Positions 22,504 to 60,241 of a stretch of 64,000 nucleotides of DNA are shown here, in pieces; position 1 is the stretch's first letter, and each line of letters opens with the position of its first letter. Location: contig NZ_FWFL01000003.1 of the NCBI RefSeq assembly GCF_900172295.1, forward strand, positions 372,001-436,000. Direction: 5' to 3'. A program made the position numbers and the translations under genes. The notes below the pieces were generated by a model. That model had not been told where the DNA came from, ran no database searches, and saw only the letters and a list, made by a program, of their open reading frames with translations. Source of the DNA: Roseovarius litorisediminis. Lineage in GTDB: Bacteria > Pseudomonadota > Alphaproteobacteria > Rhodobacterales > Rhodobacteraceae.

Positions 22504-24090
22504 ATGACCCTCAATCTTTCAATGCCCGGTCAGGATGACCTGAAACCACGCATCACTGTTTTCGGTGTTGGTGGGGCCGGTGGTAACGCCGTCAACAACA
22601 TGATCGAGAAAGAGCTGGATGGCGTCGATTTTGTTGTCGCCAACACGGATGCGCAGGCGCTGCAACAAAGCAATGCCGACAATCGCATTCAGCTGGGCGT
22701 GAAAGTGACCGAAGGTCTGGGCGCCGGGGCGCGTGCCAGCGTGGGGGCCGCCGCCGCCGAGGAGAGCATTGAACAGATCGTGGATCATCTGGCAGGCGCG
22801 CATATGTGTTTCATCACCGCCGGCATGGGTGGCGGAACCGGCACCGGGGCCGCGCCAATCATCGCGCAGGCCGCCCGCGAGCTGGGTGTGCTGACTGTGG
22901 GTGTTGTCACCAAACCGTTCCAGTTCGAAGGCGCCAAGCGGATGCGTCAGGCCGAGGATGGCGTGGACGCACTGCAAAAGATGGTTGATACGCTGATCAT
23001 CATCCCCAACCAGAATCTGTTCCGTCTGGCGAACGAGAAAACCACCTTTACCGAGGCGTTTTCGATGGCCGATGACGTGCTTTACCAGGGCGTCAAAGGT
23101 GTGACTGACCTGATGGTTCGCCCTGGTCTGATTAACCTTGATTTTGCCGATGTCCGCGCCGTTATGGACGAGATGGGCAAGGCCATGATGGGGACCGGCG
23201 AAGACAGTGGCGAAGACCGCGCCATTCAGGCTGCCGAAAAGGCCATTGCAAACCCGCTGCTGGACGAAATCAGCCTGCGCGGCGCCAAGGGTGTTCTGAT
23301 CAACATCACCGGCGGGCACGACCTGACCTTGTTCGAACTGGACGAAGCGGCCAACCGCATCCGCGAAGAAGTGGACGCCGAAGCAAATATCATCGTCGGT
23401 TCGACGCTGGATACGGCCATGGAAGGCTCGATGCGGGTCAGTGTTGTGGCGACAGGCATTGACGCCTCGGAAAGCGTATCTGATATGCCGGTTCCCCGCC
23501 GTTCCATGGCGCAGCCGTTGCGGCCCATGGCCGAGGAAAAAGCGCAAGAAGAGCGTGAAGAGGTTGCCGCCGCCGAGCCTGAACCAGCGCTTTTCCGCGA
23601 GCTTGATGAGGTCGACAGCCAGTCGGACGAAGATTTCGAAGCAGAAACCGCCGCCAAGGACGATCTGCCACCGCCAGCCTATACGCCTAAGGTGCGGGAA
23701 TTTCAGCCGACGACCGACCACGCTGATGAAGATGAGGGACTTGACGATTATGTAGCTCCGCGCGCCCCGGCGCCCGGCACCCCGTCCCCCGAGGCCCTGG
23801 CCCGTTTGCAGGCCGCTGTCAGCAAGGCACCTGGCCAGCAGTCTTTCAACAATCGGCCTGAGGTTGCACGCGCGCCCCAGACCGAGCCTGCCGGCGAGCG
23901 GCCGCGCTTTGGCATCAACTCGCTGATCAACCGGATGACAGGGCACGCCAGCGCCGAGAGTGAGCAGCAGACAGCTCGAGCAACACGCCAACAGCCAACG
24001 GTACAGGCCCGCCAGGCCCCCGTTGAAGTGAAAGACGAAGAAGACGAACAGATTGAAATTCCGGCGTTCCTGAGGCGTCAAGCCAACTAA
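22504..24090 (+). CDS. ftsZ: Cell division protein FtsZ
   Basis: The tubulin-like GTPase that forms the division ring, 528 residues, longer than the ~380 of E. coli because of an extended variable linker. The ATG at 22504 is used ([17 protein letters not shown]); an upstream in-frame ATG at 22474 is less likely. The GTP-binding loop [10 protein letters not shown] begins at about residue 110, and the T7-loop region [11 protein letters not shown] is present. Residues about 350-515 are a low-complexity Glu/Pro/Ala linker, then the conserved tail peptide [11 protein letters not shown] (518-528) that binds FtsA and other partners. A terminator follows the gene. Confidence 0.97.
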
Positions 24091-49340: not shown

Positions 49341-49705
49341 TGACACTTGCGGGGGCCGCTATAGCGCTTTCGGGCGCGGGGATATTGGTGACAGGGTTTC
49401 TGGCACTGATGTTTCTGCGTGATCCGATTGCCGGATTGGCCCACACGACGCACCGGGCGGAACATCTGCCCGAAGTCATGACGGACCGCTACATTGCCTT
49501 TACCATCCTGACGATCGGGGCCACGCTTTATGGCGATATGAAGGTGATTGCGGCGCTCTTTGCGACTTTTGCATTTATGGGGTTTGCCGACGCCTGGATT
49601 TATGCGCGCGGTGGTCATCCGATTGCCAAGCATATTGGTGCCGGCATTGCGGCCTCGGTCGTGACTGTGGTGGCGCTGCTGGCGATATGGGGGCAGGGCG
49701 CATGA
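49340..49705 (+). CDS. Membrane protein between nuoD and nuoE
   Basis: A 121-residue protein with three or four predicted helices (about 3-25, 50-63, 67-84, 98-117) and a polar loop RAEHLPEVMTDRYIAFTIL. I do not recognise the family with certainty. Translation is coupled to nuoD (TAATG overlap) and its end overlaps the following secreted-protein gene. Its place suggests a link to complex I assembly or coincidental operon membership. Confidence 0.7.
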   Translation: MTLAGAAIALSGAGILVTGFLALMFLRDPIAGLAHTTHRAEHLPEVMTDRYIAFTILTIGATLYGDMKVIAALFATFAFMGFADAWIYARGGHPIAKHIGAGIAASVVTVVALLAIWGQGA

Positions 49706-50466
49706 TCCGGATCATTGTGGCCATATCGTTGTCTTTCGGGCTGGCGACAGCCCCTGTTTCTGTTACGGCCTCAGAGGCCGTGTCGCCAGAGCGCGTCGAG
49801 GCTTTTGTTGCGGTGGTCGAGGCGAATGGCTGCCGGATGACCCAGTACCGGGCCAACACGGTGCTGCCCGAAGCAGGGTTCGACAACAAGACCGAAACAA
49901 AATCGATCACCGAATTGCTGATCGAGCAGGAACGAGCCCGCATTCTGGACGGACAACTGGTTTTGTTTGGCGGCGCCTGTGGCGAGACACTGAAATATTC
50001 GGGCCGCGAACGGTTTTTTGCCGGGCTGGCCGACAATGGCTGCAAAATGAATTCGGAAGAGGCAAGGCTGATCCTGCCCCGTGTGGGTGTCGAGATGCAG
50101 GAAGTGCAACTTCTTATGGAGCGTATGATCCATATGAGCGAGGTCAGCCTGTCAGATGACGAGAAAACTGTCTATCTAGAGCAAGGCCTTTGCGACAAAT
50201 TCAGGGGTCTTTCGGCGTCCATGGCCGCGACAAAACCGATCGCACAGCAGCGCACCGCGGAAGAGCTGAAGGCGGCTTTTGTTGAATTCATGAAATCAGT
50301 GGATTGCAAGATGACCCGCGCCCAATCGCATGAAATGCTGCCTGCCGCGGGCTTCACCGGCAAAGAGCTGCGGCCGATTATTGCTGGTATGATCAAAGAC
50401 GGCGAGGCAACGATGACCGGTGAACAGGATCTTTTGACGCTAAAAAAAGAGGTGTGTAACGGATGA
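49702..50466 (+). CDS. Exported protein with three Cys-paired repeat units
   Basis: A secreted protein of 254 residues from ATG 49702, with a signal peptide (MIRIIVAISLSFGLATAPV, cleavage near TAS). The mature part is three units of about 70 residues, each with the pattern: helix, GC or DC followed by K/R-MT or similar, a hydrophobic LP..G(F/V) motif, an acidic helix, and a closing Cys. Unit 1: ANGCRMT ... LPEAGF ... FGGAC. Unit 2: DNGCKMN ... LPRVGV ... EQGLC. Unit 3: SVDCKMT ... LPAAGF ... KKEVC. Six Cys in three pairs suggest disulfides in the periplasm. The function is unknown. It overlaps the next gene, which carries one more such unit. Confidence 0.75.
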   Translation: MIRIIVAISLSFGLATAPVSVTASEAVSPERVEAFVAVVEANGCRMTQYRANTVLPEAGFDNKTETKSITELLIEQERARILDGQLVLFGGACGETLKYSGRERFFAGLADNGCKMNSEEARLILPRVGVEMQEVQLLMERMIHMSEVSLSDDEKTVYLEQGLCDKFRGLSASMAATKPIAQQRTAEELKAAFVEFMKSVDCKMTRAQSHEMLPAAGFTGKELRPIIAGMIKDGEATMTGEQDLLTLKKEVCNG

Positions 50467-50744
50467 TACGCAAAGCCGTTTTAGCGACGACGGGCCTGAC
50501 CCTGCTGACTGCCTGTGCCTTGCCGCCGCAAAGCGTCAATCGTCAACAGATTGCCGATTACGAGGCCGCTGTCGCCAGCATTGGCTGCGAGCTGGTGAGT
50601 GAATCTGATTATCTGCCGGTTGAACTTCAGGCCGGGCTGACGCGCCAGCAGGCGCTTGATATTACGAAATACGAACTTGCTGCCGGGACTGCTGAAGCGC
50701 TGCCCGGCGGTGGAGTGAGACTGACCACAGGAGCCTGTGCCTAG
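50463..50744 (+). CDS. Small lipoprotein with one Cys-paired repeat unit
   Basis: A 93-residue predicted lipoprotein with lipobox LLTAC (Cys at about residue 18). The rest is a single copy of the unit found three times in the preceding protein: ASIGCELV ... YLPVELQAGLT ... GAC, with one Cys near its start and one at its end. The two genes overlap by 4 bases and nuoE begins on the next base after its stop. Function unknown. Confidence 0.72.
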   Translation: MIRKAVLATTGLTLLTACALPPQSVNRQQIADYEAAVASIGCELVSESDYLPVELQAGLTRQQALDITKYELAAGTAEALPGGGVRLTTGACA

Positions 50745-51965
50745 ATGCTACGCCGTCTCTATCATGAGCAGCCCGAAAGCTTTGCTTTTTCGCCCGCAAA
50801 TCAAAAGTGGGCCGAGGCGCAGATAACGAAATACCCCGAGGGGCGTCAGGCATCGGCGATCATTCCGTTGCTTTGGCGCGCGCAGGAGCAAGAGGGCTGG
50901 CTGACACGCCCCGCGATCGAGCATGTGGCCGACAGGCTGGGCATGGCCTATATCCGGGCTTTGGAAGTGGCCAGCTTCTATTTTATGTTTCAGCTACAGC
51001 CGGTTGGTTCCGTGGCGCATATTCAGGTTTGTGGCACAACGTCCTGCATGATCTGCGGCGCTGAGGATCTGATCGGGGTCTGCAAGGAGAAAATCGCGGC
51101 TAACCCGCATACCCTGAGTGCTGATGGCAAATTCAGCTGGGAAGAGGTGGAATGCCTGGGGGCCTGCGCCAACGCCCCGATGGCACAGATCGGGAAAGAC
51201 TATTACGAGGATCTGACCGCGGCGCGTATGGGCGAGATCATTGATGAACTGGCTGCAGGCAAGGTGCCAACACCGGGCCCGCAGAACGGGCGTTATGCTT
51301 CTGAGCCAAAATCCGGTCTGACGTCGCTCAACGAATTCGACAGTGGCAAGACCAAATACAATGCCAGCGCACAGCTTGCCATTGATATTGGTGACACGGT
51401 CAAGCGGATCGACGGGACCGAAGTGCCGCTGTTGACGCCTTGGCGCGACAAAGGGGCTAATCACACCCCCGCAGCGCCAAAGGTGAAACTTGCCAGCGAG
51501 CCGGTTGCAGTGGTTGCCAAAGAGGCACGGATTTCAAAGTCTGATGCCAAAAAGGGCGATGATGCAAAATCGAAAGCCAAACCAAAGCTCAAGGCCCCGA
51601 AGAAAGCCGCAGTCAAGCCTGCCGCTGAATCAGCGACGCCAGCAAAGGCGGCATCCAAAGCAGCCGTAACAGGCGCTGGCAAGAAGCCACGTGTCATGAA
51701 GGCCCCGCGCAAATCCGGTGCGGATAACCTGAAAATGATCAAGGGCGTTGGGCCGAAACTGGAAATCATGCTGAACGATCTGGGCTTTTTCCATTTTGAC
51801 CAGATTTCGAAATGGACCGAAAACGAGGTCGCCTGGGTCGATCAGAACCTTGAAGGCTTCAAAGGGCGGGTCAGCCGTGACAACTGGGTAGAACAAGCGA
51901 AACTTCTGGCGGAAGGAAAAGAGACCGAGTTCTCGGCCCGGGCCAAAAAAGGGAATATCTATTGA
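50745..51965 (+). CDS. nuoE: NADH-quinone oxidoreductase subunit E with C-terminal helix-hairpin-helix extension
   Basis: The 24-kDa subunit with 2Fe-2S cluster N1a, at 406 residues more than twice the core length. The core is residues 1-190, with cluster ligands C96, C101, C137 and C141 ([21 protein letters not shown]). Residues about 235-325 are a Lys/Ala-rich linker with repeated [11 protein letters not shown]-type sequence, and 327-406 form a helix-hairpin-helix domain ([19 protein letters not shown]) of the type also found at the end of ribosomal protein L21 in this family. The extension is duplicated in the next gene. Its role in complex I is unknown. Confidence 0.95.
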
Positions 51966-52000
51966 CGACATCCAAGTGACCGCCACAGGGAGTAACTGCC

Positions 52001-52666
52001 ATGTCTAATTCTGGAACTTCGGGAAGCTGCCCGGTGATCTGCTGGGGCCTTGCCCTGATCGCAGGTCTGATAACTGTCTGGTCAACGATTGATGCAGTCG
52101 GTTTTGTGGCTGCCCTGATGCTGGGATTGGCGTTGGCAGTTCTGCTGGGGTTGGTCCTGACGCAGTTGTTTTGCTCTGCCTCGGAAAGCCATGTGGTGCC
52201 TTCGGACGCCAGCGCTCCTGTCGAGAAGCGCGAGACGGCGAAGCCCGCGGTGAACAAGGCCGTCGCTCCGGAGACTGCTTCTGCCGCCAAGGAAACGGCG
52301 AGTGCCCCCGCTGATGAGGTTGAGGCGGAAAAGACGCAAGACTCTGACGGCGATGGCGTGTTGGAAGGTGAAGATGAGGGCGCACAGCCCGAGACGCTGA
52401 AAGCGGCGCGCGGTGGCAAGGCGGATGACCTCAAGCAGATCAGGGGCGTCGGCCCCAAGCTGGAAGTCTTGCTGAACGAAATGGGGTTTTACCATTTCGA
52501 CCAGATCGCAGGATGGAATGCGAATGAGGTGGCTTGGGTCAATGCAAACCTCAAAGGCTTCAAGGGGCGCGTGACGCGCGACAATTGGGTCGAACAGGCA
52601 AGGATTCTTGCCGCAGGCGGTGAAACAGAATTCTCGAAACGCGTCGAAGACGGCGGCGTGTATTGA
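52001..52666 (+). CDS. Membrane protein with helix-hairpin-helix domain paralogous to NuoE tail
   Basis: A 221-residue protein with two N-terminal membrane helices (about 12-30 and 33-55), an acidic/Ala-rich linker, and a C-terminal domain (about 141-221) closely resembling the NuoE extension: LKQIRGVGPKLEVLLNEMG, then [15 protein letters not shown]. Such domains bind nucleic acid or proteins; here it would face the cytoplasm. Its position between nuoE and nuoF suggests a membrane anchor or partner for the NADH-oxidising module. Function unknown. Confidence 0.82.
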   Translation: MSNSGTSGSCPVICWGLALIAGLITVWSTIDAVGFVAALMLGLALAVLLGLVLTQLFCSASESHVVPSDASAPVEKRETAKPAVNKAVAPETASAAKETASAPADEVEAEKTQDSDGDGVLEGEDEGAQPETLKAARGGKADDLKQIRGVGPKLEVLLNEMGFYHFDQIAGWNANEVAWVNANLKGFKGRVTRDNWVEQARILAAGGETEFSKRVEDGGVY

Positions 52667-52678
52667 AAGCGATGAGTG

Positions 52679-52900
52679 ATGCAGGGACCGGACAAACAAC
52701 AGGCGCAGAAAGGCCGCTTCACCGCGATGGTGATCGCAGGCACGGCTGTGTTCTGGGTGCTGGCCACGCTGATCGGGGGGCAATTGGGGCTGAGCAACCG
52801 TGTTCGAGCCTTGTTCGATATGCTGGCACTGGCGGGGTTCATATGGGCCTTCGTCTTGATTTACCAAATCTGGCGCGATCGCCAGAGCAATCAGGGGTAG
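52679..52900 (+). CDS. DUF5337 family membrane protein
   Basis: A 73-residue protein with two helices (about 19-36 and 46-64) and the family phrase [28 protein letters not shown]5337 proteins sit before nuoF in Rhodobacterales; no function is known. ATG 52679 is chosen; GTG 52676 is adjacent. It ends 4 bases before nuoF. Confidence 0.8.
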
Positions 52901-52904
52901 CGGG

Positions 52905-54200
52905 ATGCTGAAAGACCAGGACCGTATTTTTACCAATCTCTACGGGATGCATGACCGCACCCTCAAGGGTGCCAAGGCGCGCGGACATTGGGACGGTACG
53001 GCAAAGATTTTGCAGAACGGGCGCGACTGGATCATCAACCAGATGAAAGCCAGCGGCTTGCGCGGACGTGGTGGTGCAGGGTTCCCCACGGGCCTGAAGT
53101 GGTCGTTCATGCCCAAGGAAAGCGATGGCCGCCCGGCCTATCTGGTGGTCAATGCCGACGAATCCGAGCCCGGCACCTGCAAAGACCGCGAGATCATGCG
53201 GCATGACCCACATACGTTGATCGAGGGCTGTCTGATTGCCAGCTTCGCGATGAATGCACATGCCTGTTACATCTACATTCGGGGTGAATATATTCGCGAG
53301 CGCGAGGCGCTGCAGGCCGCGATCGACGAGGCTTATGATGCCGGGTTGATCGGCAAGAACGCCTGCAAATCCGGTTATGATTTTGATCTGTATCTGGCGC
53401 ATGGCGCCGGGGCCTATATCTGCGGTGAGGAAACGGCGCTGCTGGAGAGCCTTGAAGGCAAGAAGGGCATGCCACGGATGAAGCCTCCGTTCCCGGCAGG
53501 GGCAGGCTTGTATGGTTGTCCGACCACCGTGAACAACGTGGAATCGATTGCCGTAGTGCCGACCATTTTGCGCCGTGGACCGGACTGGTTTGCAGGTTTC
53601 GGGCGCCCCAACAATGCGGGCACCAAAATCTTTGGCATCTCGGGCCATGTGAACAACCCGTGCGTTGTCGAAGAATCGATGTCGATTTCATTTGAAGAAC
53701 TGATCGAGAAACACTGTGGCGGTATTCGCGGTGGCTGGGATAACCTGAAGGCGGTGATCCCGGGTGGTTCGTCCGTGCCCTGCGTGCGCGGCGAAAACAT
53801 GCGCGATGCGGTGATGGATTTTGACGCGCTACGCGAAGTTGGTTCAAGCTTGGGCACGGCGGCAGTCATTGTGATGGACAAGGACACCGACATCATCAAG
53901 GCGATCTGGCGGCTGTCGAAATTCTACAAACACGAAAGCTGCGGTCAGTGTACGCCGTGCCGCGAGGGTACAGGCTGGATGATGCGGGTGATGGACCGCC
54001 TGGTAAAAGGCGAGGCCGAGGTTGAAGAGATCGACATGCTGCTGTCAGTCACCAAGCAGGTCGAAGGTCACACAATTTGCGCCCTTGGAGATGCGGCGGC
54101 CTGGCCAATTCAGGGCCTGATCCGCAATTTCCGTGACGAGATCGAGGACCGGATCAAGGCGCAGAAAACCGGCCGCGTCAGTGCCGTGGCGGCGGAGTGA
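52905..54200 (+). CDS. nuoF: NADH-quinone oxidoreductase subunit F
   Basis: The 51-kDa subunit, 431 residues, which binds NADH, FMN and 4Fe-4S cluster N3. Motifs are [16 protein letters not shown] (NADH), [32 protein letters not shown], and the cluster ligands [12 protein letters not shown] with the distal Cys in HTICALGD. The start ATG at 52905 is preceded by GGGTAGCGGG. Confidence 0.98.
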
Positions 54201-54679: not shown

Positions 54680-55087
54680 ATGCGTATGATGACAACCTTG
54701 GTTTTAGGTTTCGCACTGGTGGCCAGTGCCGTAGGTGCCAGTGCCAAAACGCCGCTGCGTGATGTCAGCGAGATTGACGATGCTATGCTGTGGGTCGCTT
54801 TGGCCATTGAGATCAGTGACAAATGCAATGAAATTGACCCGCGCACTTTTAAAGGGCTTTCGGTGCTTTACGGGCTGAAAAACCGGGCCCAGGAGCTGGG
54901 CTATTCGAACTCCGAAATCAAAGCCTATGTCAAAAGCCACGAGGAAAAGGCGCGAATGCGCCAGCGCGGCGAGAAATATGTGAAATCCAGAGGTCTGAAC
55001 CCGTCCGATCCGGCGGCGCTGTGCAGTCTTGGCCATACCGAGATTGACCGCTCCAGCAAGATCGGGGTTCTGTTGAAAGCAAAGTGA
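54680..55087 (+). CDS. DUF5333 family exported protein
   Basis: A 135-residue protein with a signal peptide (MRMMTTLVLGFALVASAVG, ending ASA). The mature part (EISDKCNEIDPRTFKGLSVLYGLKNRAQELGYS; DPAALCSLGHTEI) is helical with two Cys (about 49 and 115) and matches the DUF5333 family, which lies beside nuoG in Rhodobacterales. Function unknown. It is followed by nuoG after 6 bases. Confidence 0.8.
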   Translation: MRMMTTLVLGFALVASAVGASAKTPLRDVSEIDDAMLWVALAIEISDKCNEIDPRTFKGLSVLYGLKNRAQELGYSNSEIKAYVKSHEEKARMRQRGEKYVKSRGLNPSDPAALCSLGHTEIDRSSKIGVLLKAK

Positions 55088-58565: not shown

Positions 58566-59333
58566 TTGGGCGTGGATTACGTTCTTTTTGACCGGCTAAC
58601 AGAACTGTCCACCCGGTTTCAACCGGGCGGGCGGACGCTGATGCTTGGTCGGCAGACGTTTTCCATCCAGTCGCAGTACCGCCAGCTTTATGATCAGTCG
58701 CTTGAGCGGTGCGGGATCAAGGCTTCGCGTTTTGATTTTCTGCAAAAGGACGGTTACGCGGAAACCCTGATGCGTAAGCTGGGCTTTGGCGAGATGGAGG
58801 TCATGGACTTCTCAGACTACGAAGGCGCGCAGATTTTGCACGACCTGAACATCAAGCCGCCAAAGGCGCTGGAAAAGCAGTTTGATCTGATTTTTGATGG
58901 CGGCACGATTGAACATGTGTTCAACACACCCGTGGCTTTGGAGGGTGTTTACCGCATGCTCAAGCCGGGTGGGCGGTTCATCTCGGCTAACGGTCTGAAC
59001 GGCTGGTATGGGCATGGGATGTATCAGTTCAACCCCGAGCTTGTTTGGACATTCTGGAAACGTGCCTGCAATTGCAACGTGATCAGCTGCCGCGCGGTGC
59101 CCAAGGATCCGTTGGTGGGGTTTGATCCGGTTGAATTTCCTGATCCGGCCCACACCGGTGTTCGACTCAAGCTTTACAACCAAATCGGACCGGGGCGCAC
59201 ATATCTTTATTACGAGGTGGAAAAGACCAGACAATCCCACCTGCCGAAATATGCGCTGCAAAGCGACTACGAGACAAAGTGGCATGGTCACGACAACGCC
59301 GGCGCAACCCGGTTTGAAGAAGCAAGGAGCTGA
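58566..59333 (+). CDS. Class I SAM-dependent methyltransferase-like protein within nuo operon
   Basis: A 255-residue Rossmann-type methyltransferase homolog. TTG 58566 or GTG 58572 (MDYVLFDRL) may start it, neither strongly supported. The core shows FDLIFDGGTIEHVFN (strand 4), YRMLKPGGRFISANG (strand 5) and a Tyr/Trp-rich segment NGWYGHGMYQFNPELVW. The usual Gly-rich SAM motif I is reduced to TLMLGRQTF, so binding of SAM is not certain. It differs from the known complex I factors NDUFAF5/NDUFAF7 as far as I can tell. It is between nuoH and nuoI, 4 bases after and 3 bases before. Confidence 0.78.
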   Translation: MGVDYVLFDRLTELSTRFQPGGRTLMLGRQTFSIQSQYRQLYDQSLERCGIKASRFDFLQKDGYAETLMRKLGFGEMEVMDFSDYEGAQILHDLNIKPPKALEKQFDLIFDGGTIEHVFNTPVALEGVYRMLKPGGRFISANGLNGWYGHGMYQFNPELVWTFWKRACNCNVISCRAVPKDPLVGFDPVEFPDPAHTGVRLKLYNQIGPGRTYLYYEVEKTRQSHLPKYALQSDYETKWHGHDNAGATRFEEARS

Positions 59334-59336
59334 GCG

Positions 59337-59831
59337 ATGGCGAATATAGATTATGGGCGCGCAGCCGGATATTTCCTGCTGAAAGACTTCATCGTCGGTT
59401 TCAAGCTGGGCCTGAAGTATTTCTTTGCCCCCAAGGCGACGCTGAACTATCCGCATGAAAAGGGCCCGCTGAGCCCCCGTTTCCGAGGTGAACACGCGTT
59501 GCGCCGCTATCCCAATGGCGAAGAGCGCTGCATTGCCTGCAAGCTGTGCGAGGCGATCTGTCCGGCACAGGCGATCACCATTGATGCCGAGCCGCGCGAT
59601 GACGGCAGCCGCCGTACGACGCGCTATGACATCGACATGACCAAATGCATCTACTGCGGTTTCTGCCAGGAAGCCTGCCCTGTGGATGCGATTGTCGAGG
59701 GTCCGAATTTCGAATTCGCCACCGAGACCCGCGAAGAGCTGTTTTACGACAAGGCCAAATTGCTTGAAAACGGTGACCGCTGGGAAGCCGAGATTGCCCG
59801 CAACCTTGAACTGGATGCACCTTACCGATGA
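59337..59831 (+). CDS. nuoI: NADH-quinone oxidoreductase subunit I
   Basis: The 23-kDa subunit (TYKY) with two 4Fe-4S clusters, N6a and N6b, 164 residues. The two CxxCxxCxxxCP motifs are [16 protein letters not shown] and [16 protein letters not shown]. An N-terminal amphipathic helix attaches it to the membrane arm. It overlaps the next gene by 4 bases. Confidence 0.98.
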
Positions 59832-60241
59832 CTGATCCCAAAAACCCTTTCGAGATGATGATGAAGCAGGCGCAGGAAATGGCGAAAGCGATGAACCCTG
59901 CGCTGGAATCCTTTTCGCCCAAGGGGTTTGAAAAGCTGTGGCCGACCATGCCCAAGGAATTCATGGAAATGAGCTTTGGCAGGGGCGCCAGCAAGGACGG
60001 GCTGGACGCCAAGACACGGCTTTTGCTGACACTGGCGGGGCTGACCATGCTGGGCGCGCAAAGCGATACCCAAATTCGTCTGACAGTTCGCCACGCCCTT
60101 GAGGCCGGCGCCACCAAGGACGAGATCGCCGAAACCATCGCGCAGATGTCGATGTTTGCCGGTATTCCGTCGATGACCCGCGCCATGGAGTTCGCGCGCG
60201 AGGTTATGGACGAGAGTGACAAAGAGGGAAAAGACACATGA
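59828..60241 (+). CDS. Carboxymuconolactone decarboxylase-fold protein
   Basis: A 137-residue helical protein of the CMD/AhpD superfamily: [48 protein letters not shown]. It has no Cys at all, so the AhpD redox CxxC centre is absent and peroxidase activity is unlikely. The N-terminal 50 residues (Met/Lys-rich helix) are extra. It overlaps nuoI and nuoJ by 4 bases each. Role in the operon unknown. Confidence 0.85.

Follow-up and report, generated by a model that had tools for sequence, protein, structure and literature searches.

In Roseovarius litorisediminis, NuoE, the 24-kDa subunit of complex I, and the membrane protein encoded beside it end in copies of the same helix-hairpin-helix (HhH) tail, and the neighbour is related over its full length to protein-O, which was described in 2025 as a novel subunit of the reaction centre (PMC12079452). 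For Dinoroseobacter shibae, that article already reports the shared tail and the location of the gene between nuoE and nuoF; new here is that O occupies the nuoE-nuoF interval in genera without a reaction centre, including the genome studied. This genome (100% complete) has no match to the reaction-centre family Photo_RC (PF00124), hence O cannot be an RC-LH1 subunit there and, in the lack of a photosynthetic reaction centre, probably does something more general than photosynthesis. We propose tentatively, at somewhat less than an even chance, that the tail is an exchangeable nucleic-acid docking module which tethers complex I and, via O, the membrane to the nucleoid. Unless another locus is named, positions refer to the window, the whole stretch of 64,000 nucleotides analysed (contig NZ_FWFL01000003.1, positions 372,001 to 436,000 of the forward strand).

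The genes from nuoE to nuoF (Table 1) share one strand and are separated by gaps of 35, 9 and 4 bases. A scan of 50700-53000 recovered no sigma-70-like promoter (0.7 expected) and nine terminator-like sites against 2.9 expected; the + strand holds three of these, with none falling between nuoE and O, making co-transcription of the two genes likely. NuoE was recognised by a thioredoxin-like 2Fe-2S domain within the nuo operon (Pfam 2Fe-2S_thioredx, E = 1e-51; NCBIfam NF009040, 613 bits), and the NuoE chain of 8QBY (239 aa) could be aligned only to residues 1-234 of the window protein. Most of the listed intervals without a canonical O contained an ORF of DUF5337 size with hydrophobic segments directly 5' of nuoF. 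Elsewhere in the nuo region we observed a 259-aa protein with no Pfam match between nuoD and nuoE (49687-50466), in which three repeats of a two-cysteine unit were seen by eye, a 93-aa protein (50463-50744) resembling a single fourth copy of that unit, a DUF5333 protein between nuoF and nuoG (54680-55087, E = 8.1e-38), a methyltransferase-like gene (58566-59333) and a carboxymuconolactone decarboxylase-family gene (59828-60241).

Table 1 Features of the nuoE-nuoF interval of the window and of the O-type locus of one phototrophic relative (G179).
Feature	Position	Strand	Remarks
nuoE, complex I 24-kDa subunit, long C-terminal extension	50745..51965	+	406 aa
NuoE Ala/Pro/Lys-rich linker, residues 234-319	51444..51701	+	net charge +16, script-taken stretch
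NuoE C-terminal HhH domain, residues 320-406	51702..51962	+	AlphaFold2 mean pLDDT 90.2
Protein-O homologue, with membrane hairpin, linker (low confidence) and HhH domain	52001..52666	+	221 aa
Protein-O two-helix membrane hairpin, residues 6-64	52016..52192	+	with Cys10 and Cys58
Protein-O linker, residues 65-130	52193..52390	+	mostly pLDDT 54-72; net charge -10, script-taken stretch
Protein-O C-terminal HhH domain, residues 135-221	52403..52663	+	helices of at least 4 residues from 152 to 216
Small ORF, Pfam DUF5337	52676..52900	+	74 aa, GTG start; setting, outside the shared domain
nuoF, other end of the interval	52905..54200	+
G179 O-type protein: hydrophobic hairpin, Ala/Pro-rich linker, HhH tail	L197:2065-2682		205 aa
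G179 locus with dxs and, directly after it, the O-type gene	L197:2065-4712 (G179:C50:20564-23211)	minus	PufX-type phototroph

In the D. shibae RC-LH1 (8YY9), protein-O was identified by mass spectrometry, and cryo-EM resolves its residues 8-59, a membrane hairpin lying between RC and LH1 and closed by a disulfide, Cys10-Cys59. The C-terminal domain of protein-O resembles those of NuoE and others (Wang et al. 2025, PMC12079452). A PDB sequence search matched residues 8-221 of the window protein to 8YY9 chain O (E = 1.4e-46), and also retrieved chain a of 9WQV (E = 1.5e-28), by description the LH1-RC of Rhodovulum sulfidophilum. That entry contains a reaction-centre M chain, and its chain a was deposited under a complex I name; we found no paper describing it. 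The preliminary description of this DNA had given the nuoE neighbour two membrane helices, and the AlphaFold2 model bears this out: helices span 6-33 and 35-64, confidence is low at about 61-120, and the C-terminal domain is folded. The kinship with protein-O had gone unnoticed there, as had the frequency of the protein in non-phototrophs. Superposition of the predicted hairpin on 8YY9_O (8-59) covered 51 residues at 1.0 A, that on 9WQV_a 59 residues at 1.7 A, and Cys10 and Cys58 fall at the positions of the D. shibae disulfide. The protein thus has the two-helix hairpin, the cysteine pair, the linker with HhH domain and the gene position of a protein-O orthologue, in a genome that lacks the reaction centre expected of an RC-LH1 subunit.

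The occurrence of the tail and of O was surveyed in 198 genomes of the Rhodobacteraceae-type family, one per genus. The nuoE-nuoF interval was resolved in 181; the remainder comprised 10 unresolved intervals, six genomes without a nuoF match, and G144. Among the matches listed, the tail domain was found once or more in 181/198 genomes and the O hairpin profile (E <= 0.001) in 131/198.

The HhH domain at the end of NuoE had been described as duplicated on the neighbour, and the two proteins are indeed 66% identical, without gaps, over their last 87 residues, with the motifs first picked out (KGVGPKLE or RGVGPKLE, GF(F/Y)HFDQI, NEVAWV, FKGRV, RDNWVEQA) all present in both tails at matching spacing. 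Over longer tail sequences BLASTP gave 46% identity across 162 aa (E = 3e-45). A pair of tailed genes recurred at the nuoE-nuoF junction in 100/181 resolved genera, so that the likeness is not due to chance. Both window tails matched the C-terminal part of the NCBIfam PhaH model NF045508, from profile positions 103 (NuoE, 67.9 bits) and 100 (O, 69.7 bits) to 233 of 234, scores below the whole-protein cut-off of 250 bits. Scores against Pfam HHH_5 were likewise below the gathering score of 27 bits (O, 14.4; NuoE tail, 13.2), and 53 of 58 relatives gave a weak HHH_5 match (best E = 2e-5) and 56 a Cdd1 match (best E = 2.3e-4). The window tails are predicted to combine the G-h-G hairpin and compact helical fold of HhH domains, with a moderate fold match (Z under 8). 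The nearest folds included the NusA AR2 and RadA N-terminal domains (Z 7.0-7.2, none reaching 8), NusA AR2 (6ib8_C) aligning with the tail model over 61/65 residues at 2.2 A (Z 7.0). Foldseek alone retrieved nothing at E <= 0.001 with the two models, a result that carries no evidence on the fold.

Conservation of the tail was pronounced. Across 147 NuoE and 112 O tails, G15, G17, F53, G55, R56, R59, D60, W62 and Q65 were each 96-100% conserved; within the hairpins, G15/G17 reached 98-100% and R56/R59 99-100%, and K or R occupied position 54 in 95-96%. The HhH domain had a median net charge of -1 on both hosts. Where both tails occur (100 genomes), the linker of NuoE carried more positive charge than that of O in 81 genomes and less in 14, linkers (and the cysteine pairs below) being called by hydropathy windows.

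The same domain was found on further hosts. The preliminary description's statement that a similar domain ends ribosomal protein L21 holds in the window genome, whose third copy closes bL21 (G000:C29:236537-236758; gene at L004:979-1707, NCBIfam NF008915, 382 bits), and the domain is part of the NCBIfam models of bL21 (NF008915), S2 (NF008966) and the phasin PhaH (NF045508). Of seven L21 tails, 0% had a basic residue at position 14 and 43% at position 19, both in the first hairpin. Among the best 60 of 61 PDB chains matched, the L21 core was covered, save for 9wqv_a and 8yy9_O, which match the tail, and no solved L21 tail was found among PDB structures. The eL32 protein (PDB 9l94 chain Q) matched the same profile weakly (E = 6.4e-4). 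Across the class the domain was detected in 22/192 genomes; in the loci of 30 of 45 matches listed, assigned partly by eye, the hosts were NuoE, bL21 and several proteins that combine one or two C-terminal HhH domains with a hydrophobic segment at the N-terminus. Examples of the last kind with two copies, outside the family, lie at L288:787-1857 and L290:219-1697. In the open-access literature searched we found no paper devoted to a NuoE tail or an L21 HhH tail.

The two tails of a genome resembled each other more than expected. In the 100 two-tail genomes the mean NuoE-O tail identity was 0.687 within a genome versus 0.642 between genomes; the within-genome value was attained in 0/10,000 shuffles (shuffle sd 0.004), and identities between genera for NuoE-NuoE (0.648) and O-O (0.653) were hardly above that for NuoE-O. 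Where the residue was the same, the codon was also identical in 2369/4186 cases (0.566) compared to an expected 0.477 (same residues, other positions); codon identity between genomes was 0.492, and the within-genome excess was seen in 77/100 genomes. In one relative (G103, L164), nuoE and O share 317/326 aligned bases over the domain as one 97%-identical tract. The higher within-genome identity, the synonymous excess and this tract together indicate that the NuoE and O tails evolve in concert, at least in part, through gene conversion between neighbours. The window pair shows no recent conversion event (longest aligned identical run, 10 bases), and species distance was not significantly related to NuoE-O tail identity (70/500 relabellings as extreme). 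Such exchange suggests that the tails are interchangeable in function and that NuoE and O answer to the same ligand.

Several intervals departed from the simple pair. An extra tailed gene was present in 9/181 and a second O-type gene in 4. In some relatives a third tailed gene lies downstream of O (L068:6124-7110, L066:5305-5823, L067:6647-7552), its N-terminal part matching no NCBIfam model at E <= 0.001. Two O tails were of bL21 type by eye (L283:779-2676, from G215, and L031:5377-6231), as was the NuoE tail of G215, suggesting that L21 too takes part in the exchange of the module. One contig titled Hydrogenophaga (L008, a MAG) bears the nuoE-O pair at 84% identity and is probably mis-binned.

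We interpret these data as follows. NuoE and protein-O would bear copies of one exchangeable docking tail, an HhH domain on a flexible Ala/Pro-rich linker. Protein-O is a membrane-hairpin protein of Rhodobacteraceae, normally encoded in the complex I operon, which was presumably recruited only later, and in some phototrophs, into RC-LH1. In line with what is reported for the related PhaH domain, the tail would most likely be a non-specific binder of nucleic acid and would thereby tether complex I to the nucleoid and, via O, a patch of inner membrane, which in D. shibae and Rhodovulum sulfidophilum would include the RC-LH1. Among the links raised earlier for the duplicated domain, to the membrane, to nucleic acid or to ribosomes, nucleic acid is the best supported, through homology to PhaH, whose HhH domain is reported in a review to bind DNA, and through the conserved basic residues at the second hairpin. 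The predicted HhH-type fold with both hairpins conserved in NuoE and O tails, and the presence of one domain on NuoE, bL21, S2, PhaH, protein-O and other proteins, also favour nucleic-acid docking. Such docking is weakened by the median net charge, unusual for a DNA binder, by the scarcity of basic residues at positions 14 and 19 of the L21 tails, by nearest folds that include the protein-binding NusA AR2 and of which none reaches a Z of 8, by a DNA-binding test made in PhaH alone, and by the HhH tail not being visible in the D. shibae RC-LH1 map (PMC12079452).

The main competing explanation is that the tail docks on a common protein partner, such as a scaffold or an assembly, transcription or translation factor, in the manner of NusA AR2 with SuhB, and that complex I, O and L21 are gathered by that partner. 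The near-neutral domain and the NusA AR2 alignment fit such a partner, and exchange between hosts by gene conversion fits any shared ligand; the DNA binding reported for the homologous PhaH domain and the basic residues at the second hairpin speak against it, and we regard it as rather unlikely. Should the ligand turn out to be DNA, there would be a physical coupling between the chromosome and large bioenergetic complexes, bearing on how bacteria place their membrane complexes. A broader version, in which one HhH tail serves across Alphaproteobacteria as a nucleoid tag for ribosomes (L21, S2), PHB granules (PhaH), complex I (NuoE) and, via protein-O, RC-LH1, is more doubtful still. Were it true, the main translation, storage and energy machines would be held against the chromosome, and gene conversion would keep the complex I and protein-O copies functionally alike. 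In the open-access literature we found no nucleoid tether of complex I or RC-LH1; for O outside phototrophs, the PhaH-NuoE-protein-O relation and the tail exchange nothing was found there either, and a look at the literature on accessory genes of nuo operons led no further.

A further possibility is direct binding between the NuoE tail and the O tail, which would bridge complex I and the O hairpin and, in phototrophs, RC-LH1. Among the 181 intervals, both tails were present in 100, NuoE's only in 47, O's only in 12 and neither in 22, a co-occurrence above chance (Fisher p = 0.0007; Pagel p = 0.021, one of four tests without correction). Trait dependence was evaluated on a tree of the NuoE core and NuoF (FastTree topology, 437 trimmed columns), with Nelder-Mead fitting from four starts and some rates at bounds. 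Adjacency of the genes, the within-genome similarity of the tails and the charge difference between the linkers are also in keeping with mutual binding. Against it stand the intervals with a single kind of tail and the genomes with one copy of the domain. Exactly one match was present in 27 genomes, among the matches listed, 21 of them resolved, and this copy lay on NuoE in 11, on O in six and elsewhere in four (counted at E <= 0.001, a threshold at which diverged copies could be missed); 15 of the 17 genomes with the copy on NuoE or O are at least 94% complete. Pairing of a NuoE tail with an O tail is therefore not required, and in these genomes the ligand has to be something other than the opposite tail. 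The direct link between the NuoE and O tails is accordingly weakened and improbable, and strict co-dependence of the two was set aside on the same counts. Pairing of two copies of the same tail is possible.

The distribution of O bears on whether it is essentially a photosynthesis subunit, with relics in genera that lack a reaction centre. A reaction centre was detected in 83/198 family genomes, among the matches listed. Calls of O rested on the hairpin profile together with a tail in 106 genera, on the profile without a tail in 15 and on a tail plus hydrophobic segment in six, the weak hairpin-only calls being possibly wrong; profile matches away from nuo in G004, G045, G054 and G179 were excluded from the counts. 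O occupied the nuoE-nuoF interval in 58/75 genera with a reaction centre versus 69/106 without (Fisher p = 0.10), and a Pagel test on the tree found no dependence between O and the reaction centre (LR 2.45, p = 0.65). The occurrence of O in 69 genera without a reaction centre supports a docking role beyond RC-LH1 and shifts attention away from photosynthesis, towards the respiratory chain or membranes in general. Tailed O was more frequent with a reaction centre (55/75 versus 57/106, Fisher p = 0.008), the corresponding figures for tailed NuoE being 55/75 versus 92/106 (p = 0.03). Weak Pagel signals, from the same four uncorrected tests, linked the reaction centre to the O tail (p = 0.012) and to the NuoE tail (p = 0.038).

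The tailed-O association and the presence of O in the RC-LH1 structures of two species favour a photosynthetic role, but the remaining comparisons do not. Residue conservation of O tails was similar in genera with and without a reaction centre, as was the mean pairwise identity of the hairpin (0.281 in 56 with, 0.259 in 65 without). Both hairpin cysteines were present in 74 of 127 O genes, the first only in six, the second only in none and neither in 47. The pair was, if anything, commoner without a reaction centre (46/69 versus 28/58), making it a general family trait that is absent from many phototrophs. PufX or PufC was sought in 79/83 reaction-centre genomes, 74 of which had exactly one, and in the 70 with a resolved interval O accompanied PufX-type (30/39) and PufC-type (26/31) reaction centres without tracking the type. 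O as a substitute for PufX was thus rejected, as was O as a horizontally acquired photosynthesis gene, given its one syntenic place across the family. We consider an essentially photosynthetic role with relics elsewhere highly improbable.

One phototroph nevertheless carries an O-type gene beside its puf genes, a point in favour of the photosynthetic role. In G179 the nuoE-nuoF interval contains a tailed NuoE and no O, and the hairpin-profile match lies on the same contig as puf, in the one-strand order pufM (C50:23612-24358), pufX (23373-23570), dxs (NCBIfam TIGR00204, 762 bits) and the O-type gene. Among solved structures its product was closest to 9WQV chain a (E = 2.7e-24), then to 8YY9 chain O (E = 5.7e-22); BLASTP against the window O aligned the tail alone (57% over 79), and the hairpin lacks the cysteines. 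This single case supports the view that some lineages have recruited O-type proteins into RC-LH1. The weakest alternative, in which the tails are neutral in function and owe their spread to recombination, draws on the absence of either tail from part of the genera, the gene-conversion exchange and the flexible linkers, but is very hard to believe given near-invariant hairpin residues over the family, a confident folded prediction and a tail on 147/181 resolved NuoE.

As to origin, tailed nuoE is followed directly by nuoF in two families outside the Rhodobacteraceae-type family (L282, L286), and in the class-wide draw the O hairpin was detected in three genomes of its own family and elsewhere only as two marginal matches (E = 5.6e-4 and 8.2e-4). 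Most likely, then, the NuoE tail came first, and O would have arisen by duplication of it next door onto a two-helix membrane anchor.

Compared with known systems, the predicted fold is like the HHH_5-type domains of NusA AR2 and the RadA N-terminus, with the window tails scoring below the Pfam gathering thresholds. The C-terminal HhH part of PhaH is homologous to the NuoE and O tails; the phasin differs in its N-terminal part, which binds PHB granules according to the review, the window hosts being NuoE and a membrane hairpin. The bL21 and S2 extensions are the same domain on a ribosomal host and differ in positions 14 and 19, mostly not basic in the seven L21 tails. According to Wang et al., protein-U/protein-Y of the Rhodobacter sphaeroides LH1-RC has a similar hairpin at a similar site and a sequence described as quite distinct from protein-O (PMC12079452), and at 53 aa, with its gene elsewhere (PMC8564508), it has no HhH tail. 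Chain a of the Rhodovulum sulfidophilum 9WQV is the same kind of protein as the window O in the RC-LH1 of another species, although the match is weaker than that to D. shibae and the host is phototrophic. Protein-O of D. shibae agrees with the window protein in full-length similarity, hairpin, cysteine positions, HhH tail and place between nuoE and nuoF; unlike D. shibae, the window genome has no reaction centre.
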